Source of the DNA: Lachnospiraceae bacterium | Lineage (GTDB): Bacteria > Bacillota > Clostridia > Lachnospirales > Lachnospiraceae | DNA length: 43,640 nucleotides | Assembly: GCA_003447295.1 (NCBI GenBank) | Contig: DLZQ01000083.1 | Location: forward strand, 1,760 to 45,399 | Direction of reading: 5' to 3' | The notes under the pieces: generated by a model | Databases searched by the model: none | What the model saw: only the letters and a program-made list of their open reading frames with translations | What the model was told of the DNA's origin: nothing | Position numbers and translations under genes: made by a program | Part shown: positions 2,998 to 32,488 of the stretch, piece by piece | How positions within the stretch are numbered: position 1 is the stretch's first letter | Layout of the letters: the number at the start of each line of letters is the position of its first letter

Positions 2998-3134
2998 TAT
3001 CCGACCTCCTGTCTTTTTTATATTGTAACACACATTTTTGAACAAACTGCGTCCGATCTCATTGTATCAGGAAACTTTCCTCGATTAAAGTATGTTAAAT
3101 CGTCGAACATTCCTGTCCGACGATTTAACTGAAC

Positions 3135-7241: not shown

Positions 7242-7670
7242 CAAAACCGGCCCTGGCAGCGGAAACAGCTTACCCTTTCCCTGTTTCCGTTTCCCCTGGG
7301 TTGAGGCTGCACTTTGAAAAAGAAAGCCCGGCGGGAGGCCTCCGGCGCAGCATAAGGCAGACGGATACATTCCTGTCTGTGCCGAGCCATACGGCCGGTG
7401 CGCCATGACCCTGTTGCAAGTCCGCAGGACGGGACCCCTACTAAACAGGCGAGCGATCAGAACCAGGCCGCAAAACAAGTGTGGCAGCTTGTGGGCGACG
7501 AAGCATAGGCAGGGTTAAAGATACTCGCGCATTGAACGCCCGCAAAGCATTGTGCGCCGCACCCATCAGCATGGGCCGGGGTGAGACTCCCGTGGAGCTG
7601 TGCCAGCAGCCGTCCGTTTTCTGTCTCTTTTGATGCAAGAAATGGTTTTGTATTTGAAAGGGTGAACTAT
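7242..7670 (+). ncRNA. Gene-free, hairpin-rich 430-base stretch; possible structured RNA
   Basis: No frame here has a ribosome site or protein-like composition. The stretch is GC-rich and has local pairing potential: GTCC-GCA-GGAC near 7420, CCTGTT/AACAGG arms enclosing it (about 7410-7450), and CCCAT-CAGC-ATGGG near 7562-7575 followed by a GGG/CCC pair. It could be a long leader for the TnpW gene, a structured RNA, or DNA sites for the recombinase. Nothing here proves an RNA; the call is structural only. Confidence 0.35.
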
Positions 7671-29519: not shown

Positions 29520-30191
29520 TCACTCCGCTGTGGGAAGTTCTACGGTATCACATTCCCGGGGCTTACCGAAGTTCTGGATAAAACCGATCACCTGTCCCGA
29601 CAAAAGTACGGTAAATAGTGAATAACCGATCCGTCTCACCGGGATATAGCTCAAGGACATGACCAGCACGATCAGGTCCGATAGCAGGTACACCCACTGG
29701 ATCTTCCAGCCGGTGGCATGGGAAATGCTCATGGCAAGGGCATCGTCTCCACTGGGTGCTCCTCCGATACGTACGCACAGTCCGGCGCCCACACCAACAA
29801 ACAGTGCACCCACCAGGGCTGCCACAAGGGGCATGTCCGCCAGTCCGGGCCACAGGTGCGGGAATTGTTCGCAGATCTTATATGTACCGGAGAATCCCAC
29901 CGTAGCCAGTGCGGAATAAGCGATGAATTCCTTACCCAGCAGTTTCCATCCCAGCACATAGCACAACACATTCATGATGCCGCCGGTGACCGCCGGGGAG
30001 ATGCCGGTCCAGTGCTCCAATAACAGAGTTGCTCCCAGTACACCACCCTCGGTGACACCGGAGATGGAGTGTACATGATATAATCCAAATGCCAGAATAA
30101 AACTTCCCAATAAGGTTATAGCACAATTTTTTAATGTGATGTTTTTCAATGCTTCTTTCCATTCGTGAATCTGTGATTTCATTTTGTTCAT
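29520..30191 (-). CDS. YitT-family membrane protein (short form)
   Basis: 223 residues with five or six membrane segments. It includes the family-like LGSFILAFGLYHVHSISGVTEGG, a GLADMPLVAALVGALFVGVG segment and RIGGAPSGDDALAMSISHATG. Full-length YitT proteins carry a cytoplasmic DUF2179 domain of about 80 residues, which is missing here, so it resembles the short members. Transport substrate unknown. The ATG has no clear ribosome site. The gene has its own promoter and a leader of about 130 bases with a hairpin and a small open frame. Confidence 0.75.
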   Translation of the reverse strand: MNKMKSQIHEWKEALKNITLKNCAITLLGSFILAFGLYHVHSISGVTEGGVLGATLLLEHWTGISPAVTGGIMNVLCYVLGWKLLGKEFIAYSALATVGFSGTYKICEQFPHLWPGLADMPLVAALVGALFVGVGAGLCVRIGGAPSGDDALAMSISHATGWKIQWVYLLSDLIVLVMSLSYIPVRRIGYSLFTVLLSGQVIGFIQNFGKPRECDTVELPTAE

Positions 30192-30360: not shown

Positions 30361-30372
30361 GTCTTATCGGAG

Positions 30373-30415
30373 AATCGAAAAACCCCAGGCTGTTATACCT
30401 GGGGGTTTTTCGATT
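30373..30415 (-). terminator. Terminator of tandem RNA unit A
   Basis: AATCGAAAAACCCCAGG (30373-30389) pairs with 30398-30415 in a 17-base-pair stem with one bulged base. Both strands have a T5 in the outer stem, so it can act in either direction; it also insulates yitT. Confidence 0.75.
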
Positions 30416-30484
30416 TTCTTATGAGGGGGGGAGATAGTGAGTTCATCAACTATCTGAAATACATATTACAGAAGAAATGTGTAC
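30373..30484 (-). ncRNA. Tandem small-RNA candidate, unit A
   Basis: Positions 30415-30484 match 30598-30667 at 66 of 70 bases. Read leftward, the unit has a 7-base-pair hairpin (AGATAGT/ACTATCT, 30432-30455, 10-base loop), a run of seven Cs (30425-30431), the linker TCATAAGAAA, and the terminator at 30373-30415. This is the layout of a terminator-ended regulatory RNA with an exposed C tract able to bind Shine-Dalgarno sequences. The start point is uncertain; TAATAT near 30460-30465 is a possible -10 with no good -35. On the opposite strand the same DNA reads as a 27-codon frame without a ribosome site (30421-30504). Confidence 0.55.
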
Positions 30485-30562
30485 AGAATGTGTATGAATT
30501 CTAATTTAATTCTAAAATGAATCTTGAGGTTTTATAAACTCTGAAAAGTCCTACCGAACACC

Positions 30563-30593
30563 AAAAAGTCTCAGGCATGATGCCTGAGACTTT
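30563..30593 (-). terminator. Terminator of tandem RNA unit B
   Basis: AAAGTCTCAGGC (30565-30576) pairs perfectly with 30582-30593 around ATGAT. Leftward the stem ends in five Ts; rightward only three Ts and then CC. This asymmetry favours leftward transcription. Confidence 0.75.
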
Positions 30594-30667
30594 CCGGTTT
30601 CTTATGAGGGGGGGAGATAGTGAGTTCATCGACTATCTGAAATACATATTACAGAGAAAATGTGTCC
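30563..30667 (-). ncRNA. Tandem small-RNA candidate, unit B
   Basis: This is the second copy of the unit, 183 bases upstream of unit A in the direction of reading. It keeps the hairpin (30615-30638), the C7 tract (30608-30614) and the TCATAAGAAA linker, while the terminator stem differs completely in sequence from that of unit A but is again perfect. It lies directly downstream of recJ on the same strand with no separate recJ terminator, so it could also be processed from the recJ transcript. The mirror-strand frame (30604-30687) is also 27 codons. Confidence 0.55.
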
Positions 30668-30724
30668 ATTTTGTGTTCAAAAAATAAAAAAATATGAATG
30701 TGATTCTGAACAGTTACAAAAATG

Positions 30725-32488
30725 TCAGCAATAGTTCTGCATGACAAACTGCACTTCCGTCCTACCCTTATAGGTATTTTGGCCGACCTGATATACCACA
30801 GAAAGAGGAAAACTTCCTCTTCCGGCATAAAGTGCTTCTTCACTTCCGATACCATATTTTTCATTTAAGAAAGCTCCCAGTCGTTCCAGGTCCCCGAAAA
30901 ACACCAGCGTCTGCGTATTTCCTTCCGGTGTCTTCACCCGGAATCTGGCACAGGTCTTGTTGGCACCCATTTTAAATCCCGCCTGAAAGAGCAGATCCTT
31001 TTGTGCAAAAAGGGGCTTCGGATTCCCGGTTCCGAAAGGTTCTAATAACGCCAGTTCTCCTGCCAGGGCTTCGTCCGCATATCCCATGGGCATTGCCACA
31101 TCAATATGTACTCTGGGAATAAAATCATCTTCTGTCAGCGTACAGTTTTTATTGAGAGCAATCCGCAGAGGTTCAATATCCTCCTCCCGCATGGACAGAC
31201 CTGCTGCCAGTTTATGTCCACCGTACTTGGTAAAAAACTGTTTCACCTGCGTCATGGCATCATACATATGGTAAGCTTCGATAGAACGGCCGGACCCCTT
31301 CACACCGTCCTCTCCTTTGGTCAGGATGAATACCGGATGATGATATTTTTCCCTGACTTTCCCGGCAATGATTCCGGCAATGCTCTCATGGACCTCCGGC
31401 AGATAGATCACCATGACTTTATCTTCTGTCATATGATGTTCCAAAATATACTCATCCGCTCTTTGAATCCCCTGGACCGTCAGATTCTTGCGACTTTCGT
31501 TTAAATCTTTCAATTCTCTCGCCGCTGTCATGGCATCTGCTCTGGTAAAGCTCTGCAAAAGCTCCAGCGCCCTTTTCGCAGTATCCAGTCTGCCCGTAGC
31601 ATTCAGGCAGGGACCCAGCACGAACCCCAGGTGATATGCACTCAGCCGGTCCGGAGCGATTTCATTGACTTCCATCAACGCTTTCAGTCCTTCGTTATAT
31701 CCTTTTTGGATCCGTTTCAGTCCTTCCTTTACCAGAATGCGGTTCTCATCCTTTAACTCCATAACATCGCATACCGTGGAAAGTGCCGCGAATTCCAGCA
31801 GTTCATCCTGAATATTTATAAGCCCCGGATTCCCGGTCTTCTCCGTGATTGCCCAGATCACCTTCAGTGCCACAACGCCGCCGCAGATGCCTTGAAATGG
31901 ATAAGAACAATCACTGCGCTTGGGATCCACCACCGCCAGTGCCGGGGGCAGCTGTTCCTTCCGCTCCCCGTTTTCTTCTATATAAGGAACCTCATGATGA
32001 TCCGTAACGATCACACGCATGCCCAGGGAATTTGCCAGCTCGATCTGTGGTGCCGCGGCAATTCCGTTATCACAGGTGACGATCATTCCGACACCTTCCC
32101 GCTTCGCCTCTTCGATGAGATGCTCGTTTAATCCGTAACCGTCATGGATTCTGTGGGGGATTGCCGTATCCACCTGTGCGCCCAGCATCTGAAACCCTTT
32201 AGTCAGGATATAAGACGAGCAGATACCATCCACGTCGTAGTCCCCGATGACCCGGATATGCAGCCCTTCCTTTACCGCTTTCAGAATCTCCTCCACTGCC
32301 CTGTCCATATCCTTAAGCAGCCAGGGAGAATAGCAGTCCTCCAGTTTCCCATAGAGGAACTTCTGAATCTGGCTCTCTTCCGTCAGATCCCGGTTTCTAA
32401 GGATCCTCGCCGTCACCGGACTGATATGAAATTCCTTCGCCCATTTATCAAAATCTGCCTTCTTCGCAGCCACATACCATTTTTCCAT
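30725..32488 (-). CDS. recJ: Single-stranded-DNA-specific exonuclease RecJ
   Basis: 587 residues. The DHH phosphoesterase motifs are present: DYDVDGICSSY, VTCDNGIAA, VTDHHEVP and the PFQGICGGVVALK region. The DHHA1 domain has GGHKLAAGLSM and the end is an OB fold. RecJ degrades single-stranded DNA 5' to 3' with Mn/Mg in recombination and mismatch repair. The ATG has only a weak GCGGGA ribosome site. It has an extended -10 promoter at about 32533 that is mirrored by a promoter for the small gene at 32672. No terminator is seen before the tandem RNA units. Confidence 0.95.
   Translation of the reverse strand: MEKWYVAAKKADFDKWAKEFHISPVTARILRNRDLTEESQIQKFLYGKLEDCYSPWLLKDMDRAVEEILKAVKEGLHIRVIGDYDVDGICSSYILTKGFQMLGAQVDTAIPHRIHDGYGLNEHLIEEAKREGVGMIVTCDNGIAAAPQIELANSLGMRVIVTDHHEVPYIEENGERKEQLPPALAVVDPKRSDCSYPFQGICGGVVALKVIWAITEKTGNPGLINIQDELLEFAALSTVCDVMELKDENRILVKEGLKRIQKGYNEGLKALMEVNEIAPDRLSAYHLGFVLGPCLNATGRLDTAKRALELLQSFTRADAMTAARELKDLNESRKNLTVQGIQRADEYILEHHMTEDKVMVIYLPEVHESIAGIIAGKVREKYHHPVFILTKGEDGVKGSGRSIEAYHMYDAMTQVKQFFTKYGGHKLAAGLSMREEDIEPLRIALNKNCTLTEDDFIPRVHIDVAMPMGYADEALAGELALLEPFGTGNPKPLFAQKDLLFQAGFKMGANKTCARFRVKTPEGNTQTLVFFGDLERLGAFLNEKYGIGSEEALYAGRGSFPLSVVYQVGQNTYKGRTEVQFVMQNYC

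Follow-up and report, generated by a model that had tools for sequence, protein, structure and literature searches.

Two tandem C-tract small RNA genes in a Lachnospiraceae genome, probable members of a two-component stress regulon

The tandem units between recJ and a YitT gene

In the window, that is, the whole 43,640-nucleotide stretch of contig DLZQ01000083.1 from a Lachnospiraceae bacterium that was analysed, two near-identical units follow each other in the order recJ, copy B (about 30563-30638), copy A (about 30376-30455) and a gene for a YitT-family membrane protein (Table 1). As an earlier, sequence-only reading of this DNA had noted, the blocks at 30415-30484 and 30598-30667 are identical at 66 of 70 positions; the best 70-mer match in 200 composition shuffles of both regions did not exceed 36. 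The leftward layout which that reading described is present in both copies on the minus strand: a hairpin of the form AGATAGT-loop-ACTATCT, a run of exactly seven Cs, then TCATAAGAAA and, last, a strong terminator hairpin. The terminator stems of the two copies differ in sequence and both fold, again as claimed. The 5' hairpin has 7 bp when only AGATAGT/ACTATCT is counted, and the predicted fold gives 9 bp with a 1-nt bulge. Each copy is predicted to form two stem-loops separated by an unpaired stretch, in RNAs of about 76 and 80 nt, and both units are much more stable than their shuffles (z of -4.39 and -4.75; none of 200 shuffles was as stable).

The likeness between the copies runs upstream into the promoter, where each has a direct repeat and TAATAT, which makes the unit larger than the two 70-base blocks. 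With a matrix of the box and -10 element, the promoters of copy B (31.0) and copy A (29.5) are the best and second-best sites of the window on either strand and the only ones above 14, a third site at 3058 scoring 13.4. T runs had been said to favour the leftward strand in both copies. This is right only in part: the terminator scan calls the hairpin of copy A on both strands and that of copy B on the plus strand only, where the stem extends over the leftward T run. The leftward direction of transcription is taken from the conserved promoter and not from the T runs.

Table 1. Features of the tandem pair and its two neighbours in the window
Feature	Position	Strand	Basis and remarks
Copy B, predicted promoter	30646..30682	-	GAACACA-AAAT-GGACACA direct repeat, 11-bp period; -10 TAATAT at 30646-30651
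Copy B, 5' hairpin AGATAGT...ACTATCT	30615..30638	-	Sequence and fold; predicted transcript start ~30638, from the -10 position
Copy B, C-tract of seven Cs	30608..30614	-	Single-stranded in centroid fold
Copy B, linker TCATAAGAAA	30598..30607	-	Sequence; TCATAA in 146/160 family copies
Copy B, terminator hairpin with leftward T run	30561..30597	-	Fold and sequence; terminator scan on plus strand only
Copy A, predicted promoter	30463..30499	-	TACACA-TTCTG-TACACA direct repeat; -10 TAATAT at 30463-30468
Copy A, 5' hairpin	30432..30455	-	Sequence and fold; predicted start ~30455
Copy A, C-tract of seven Cs	30425..30431	-	Sequence and fold
Copy A, linker TCATAAGAAA	30415..30424	-	Sequence
Copy A, terminator hairpin	30374..30414	-	Fold and sequence; terminator scan on both strands
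recJ, conserved neighbour	30725..32488	-	Pfam DHH, DHHA1, RecJ_OB; gene order
YitT-family membrane protein gene, other side of the pair	29520..30191	-	Pfam YitT_membrane

A family of C-tract RNAs in Lachnospiraceae

The Rfam 15 search, which the sequence-only reading had proposed as a check, gave no match at gathering score at the element; among the matches below threshold, the best by E-value was His_leader (24.1 vs 49 bits). Across 18 related loci, one tRNA and nothing else reached the gathering score. In a BLAST comparison with 61 relatives, 29 gave matches, every one of them among the 37 genomes of the nearest group; the 24 others gave none. A pattern scan of named genomes returned at least 120 stretches. 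Of the 80 titles listed, most name Lachnospiraceae or a genus commonly assigned to that family (Acetatifactor, Butyrivibrio, Mediterraneibacter, Coprococcus comes, Eisenbergiella, Dorea, Parablautia, Anaerosacchariphilus and strain GAM79); some say merely 'Clostridia' or 'Eubacteriales', and one is a metagenome-assembled genome labelled Bacillus.

From the collected loci, 162 distinct copies were extracted and two were dropped, leaving 160. Both of the discarded stretches, L148 and L151, are without the box or TCATAA and were judged chance matches; L151 comes from a viral contig, and no mobile-element reading is drawn from it. Promoter, hairpin, C-tract and terminator are kept in the 160 copies, which bears out the proposal of leftward small-RNA (sRNA) type units. 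The expectation of an invariant C7 has to be given up, as 153 of the 160 copies have five to seven Cs and six is the commonest length: the tract counts four Cs in 1 copy, five in 46, six in 87, seven in 20, eight in 5 and nine in 1. TCATAA follows the tract in 146 copies.

A covariance model built from 72 of 86 selected non-redundant copies matched 140 of 397 family genomes, in 122 of 334 genera, with at most four matches per genome; it missed seven C-tract copies later found with a promoter model. The exact core ACTATCTCCCCC-N0..4-TCAT occurs in 103 of the 397 genomes, and its reversed control in 4. Outside the family, two genomes out of 146 at the order level and five out of 291 at the class level gave weak matches (E 2.8e-4 to 1e-3), and all seven are treated as chance rather than as spread beyond Lachnospiraceae.

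The lower stem of the 5' hairpin is near-invariant, so that the sequence itself is kept, beyond its pairing, and the covariation test suggested at the outset has no compensatory changes to assess there. The loop adds at least 2 bp to the stem in 55 of 62 distinct loops (shuffles: mean 20.8, maximum 32), which hints that the loop side also pairs. Double changes occur at 10 of 17 consensus pairs, all ten in the terminator; they are what is expected of freely replaced terminators and no proof of a special fold. In a group of copies from Mediterraneibacter- or Dorea-like genomes (L093, L094, L107 and others; GTAA-hairpin-CACTTTACTCTCATTCC), the terminator stem is lengthened by AAAGTAA/ACTTTACT and is followed by a conserved CTCATTCCTTTAGATA.

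A promoter box common to the RNA genes, htrA and a response regulator gene

The sRNA promoter consists of an 11-bp direct repeat, ACAYA-N6-ACAYA, followed by a -10 box, and is conserved across copies. A matrix of the 20-base box, with the 10th percentile of its own sites as threshold, was run on the fetched loci and gave 188 sites, of which 185 are followed by the hairpin motif within 90 bases; these sites trained the matrix, so that the 3 others are the informative ones. A strict box search of 14 genomes yielded 12 sites, 11 of them at sRNA copies and one (L153), of another geometry, judged to be chance. With a pattern combining the box and the -10 element of sRNA promoters, 45 matches were found in 16 genomes, against 2 for the reversed pattern. 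Four of the matches away from sRNA genes precede htrA, in four genera, and the htrA reading frames start 56-77 bases past the first base of the site. Trypsin-like and PDZ domains are present in the encoded protein, whose matches to HtrA models fall short of the naming cut-offs.

An independent promoter model was derived solely from the sequences of 60 sRNA promoters, with no htrA promoter among them; promoters without the core pattern were omitted, so that some of its columns are invariant by construction. It was searched against 37 sRNA-carrying genomes. Among the best 150 matches, 40 lying off known copies were read: 15 precede htrA, 2 precede a response regulator gene, 7 are extra C-tract copies, 8, 3 and 1 belong to three sRNA-like types and 4 are unassigned. 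When htrA was taken as the starting point, 31 of the 37 genomes had a site scoring at least 8 within 500 bases before the aligned start, compared with 0 of 38 on the opposite strand and 5 of 760 shuffles; in G284, whose best match scores 3.6, it was the second htrA that was counted. Four of the six misses (G332, G282, G325 and G290) have a site just beyond the 500-base limit, and no site was seen upstream of htrA in G177 and G019.

The second box-driven sRNA-like type (n=8) has the form TTTTTTCATAATAGCC-hairpin-CTCCTCATTTTA, two of its members being partial or placed elsewhere. Such units lie at L245, L247 and L254-L257 (also L234 and L244); the nearest relatives of the window, G001 and G007, have them. 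In six loci, a RelA_SpoT-domain gene adjoins the unit, the domain having been scanned in one. Two further box-driven kinds were seen, one at L204, L209, L236 and L243 and another at L205, L210 and L248, in which TTCATAA is followed by a C-rich or TTTTCCT stretch. At L211 (G442, near groEL), a box-driven unit with another 5' part shares a ACTCCCCCTCATAG stretch.

The response regulator has receiver and Trans_reg_C domains and is of the OmpR/PhoB type. Of the 397 family genomes, 374 contain it (E 1e-70), usually as one match per genome, and its scores stay under the cut-offs of all NCBIfam families among the matches listed, equivalogs included. Forty regions upstream of its gene were scored, from 24 of the 37 model-searched genomes and from the 16 further sRNA carriers most like the query regulator. 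A box scoring at least 8 is present in 32 of them, as against 2 of 40 on the opposite strand and 2 of 800 shuffles; after removal of G369, G098, G209 and G252, where the site had been shown earlier, it is present in 28 of 36. The nearest relatives, which are not among the 40, have regulator boxes of 18.6 (G007) and 18.0 (G001). A HAMP histidine kinase gene lies behind the regulator gene in G007 and G369, and a GGDEF/EAL gene, with no kinase there, in G098. Upstream of the regulator gene at L292 (G307), a strong box (23.8) on the strand pointing away suggests a putative divergent transcript.

Judged by sequence, the predicted box and -10 element is common to the sRNA, htrA, the regulator gene and, in related genomes, further units of sRNA-like type. 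The box before the regulator's own gene is weaker and somewhat different (TTCACA...GGACATA type; 8 of 40 regions are below threshold), and in 5 of 119 loci the gene of another OmpR-type, VanR-like regulator lies near the sRNA. The box might thus belong to another regulator, the response regulator being merely one of its targets. We consider this unlikely: a tandem repeat of 11 bp immediately before the -10 is in keeping with an OmpR-type regulator, the candidate is near-universal, usually single and carries the box, and in the five VanR-like loci the sole strong box is that of the sRNA itself.

A possible stress circuit, its relatives and its alternatives

Our preferred reading, which we consider probable, is that the two tandem genes in the window belong to a Lachnospiraceae sRNA family that forms the RNA arm of a self-controlled two-component stress regulon. 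We infer transcription, regulator binding and target pairing from sequence. Together with the HAMP kinase whose gene follows in G007 and G369, the response regulator would bind the box and, when the envelope or protein folding is under stress, activate its own operon along with htrA and the sRNAs; the nature of the signal is suggested by htrA and by known analogues. The exposed C-tract would pair with G-rich translation start regions and block translation, and several tandem copies would raise the RNA dose. The regulator is near-universal, whereas the sRNA is found in 35% of family genomes; the circuit may therefore often run without the C-tract RNA, or the model misses copies.

Two-component control of HtrA-type proteases is known from CssRS of Bacillus subtilis, which acts under secretion stress. 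Such control of htrA, predicted here, is the point of likeness; we know of no sRNA arm in the CssRS-htrA system. Closer relatives in layout exist, so that the sequence-only reading, which knew of no described family built in this way, is not borne out on this point. According to the parts of the articles available to us, the csRNAs of the CiaRH system of Streptococcus are several per genome and have two stem-loops with an unpaired stretch between them (PMC3091779, PMC8186281), and depend on CiaR, whose site TTTAAG-N5-TTTAAG lies before the -10 (PMC3091779). The Lachnospiraceae RNA resembles them, as far as those parts go, in being short, in having two stem-loops flanking an unpaired stretch, in occurring in several copies per genome, in having a direct-repeat box of 11-bp period some 10 nt ahead of the -10, in favouring C right before the start (here in 92 of 158 copies) and in sharing its regulon, here a predicted one, with htrA (PMC3091779). 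It differs in its box, ACAYA-N6-ACAYA, in its host family and in having a C-tract where csRNAs have an anti-SD and anti-start stretch that pairs with mRNA start sites. Since the CiaR site is absent, it is not a csRNA; by analogy, it most likely works like one. In Listeria, LhrC1-5 are described, in the available portion of the source, as multicopy RNAs under LisRK, induced by envelope stress, in which CU-rich UCCC between stem-loops binds the Shine-Dalgarno region (PMC4132741). They share with the present RNA several gene copies, two-component control (predicted here) and a C-rich stretch between two stem-loops, but carry three UCCC motifs (loop A, linker and terminator loop) where it has one C-tract, in the linker only.

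The kind of circuit is known, and the RNA family and the proposed regulon are new. A full-text literature search that combined the family name, or those of its genera, with small-RNA vocabulary yielded no relevant paper, and no report of this RNA came up in that literature; subscription papers lie outside it and may hold an earlier report. The available part of a paper on start sites in C. phytofermentans does not name the present locus, and a 2011 survey of Clostridium sRNAs is cited in the accessible part of PMC5171806. Small-RNA control in Lachnospiraceae looks almost uncharted, and a single locus has led to a defined family of RNAs, to the regulator that probably drives it and to a regulon with htrA, each of which can be tested in cultured commensals. 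It is tempting to go further, to one near-universal OmpR-type regulator that would drive itself, htrA and several structurally unlike sRNA families throughout the family, with the C-tract RNA as a broad translational brake, as a further independent invention of the CiaRH-csRNA or LisRK-LhrC design. We put forward this wider view tentatively, its chances being a little short of even. The locus is likely to be a case of convergent circuit design in a major gut group.

The odds of the pairing step are lowered by weak G-run counts and by the lack of a conserved target. Runs of five Gs were found at 11 of 638 start sites (two control places: 2 and 8 of 638), and among start sites with ordinary Shine-Dalgarno words at 1 of 294 (controls: 1 and 1). 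An earlier count of 15 of 279 was biased, the start sites having been picked partly for G runs, and its unbiased repeat left little or no excess. GAGGGGGR before ATG gave 221 matches in 11 genomes versus 101 for the reversed pattern; two of the matches, in G357, are simply the sRNA genes read on the opposite strand. No conserved mRNA target emerged from this search, in which 20 stretches were read. One gene recurred in two genomes; it matches sigma-70 region 4 weakly, short of the cut-off, and we take it to resemble a mobile-element gene. None of the candidates was accepted.

These counts, with G-rich start sites not clearly enriched, the lack of a conserved mRNA target and a lower stem kept in sequence and not merely in pairing would also suit an RNA whose partner is a protein, or one that serves as a sponge, its invariant hairpin and C-tract forming a binding site instead of pairing at start sites. 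Such a role seems improbable to us, in view of a C-tract that varies from 4 to 9 and of the order hairpin, unpaired C-rich stretch and terminator, which is the layout of mRNA-pairing sRNAs in the parts of the literature at hand (PMC3091779, PMC4132741).

The gene context raises another question, namely whether the element is a leader, an attenuator or a spacer terminator of the recJ-murE region. Neighbours were named by clustering and from the window's own genes. Among 119 loci, 44 have both recJ and murE and 43 more at least one of recJ, murE, priA and secDF, which makes 87 with such a neighbour. A cis-acting element of this sort is nevertheless very improbable, for the unit has its own promoter and terminator, it faces these genes in either orientation, depending on the locus, and the other 32 loci have none of the four.

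Last, the 27-codon rightward frame in the window copies might be taken for a short protein-coding gene, in either direction, but the data already contradict this and leave it next to no credit, in line with the sequence-only reading: the rightward ATG frame ranges from 4 to 47 codons, unstable because the C-tract length varies, and is absent in 12 of 160 copies, and the ATG in the leftward loop is absent in 91. Elsewhere in the window, at 7515-7595, the Rfam pemK RNA motif is matched barely over threshold (36.4 vs 34.8 bits).
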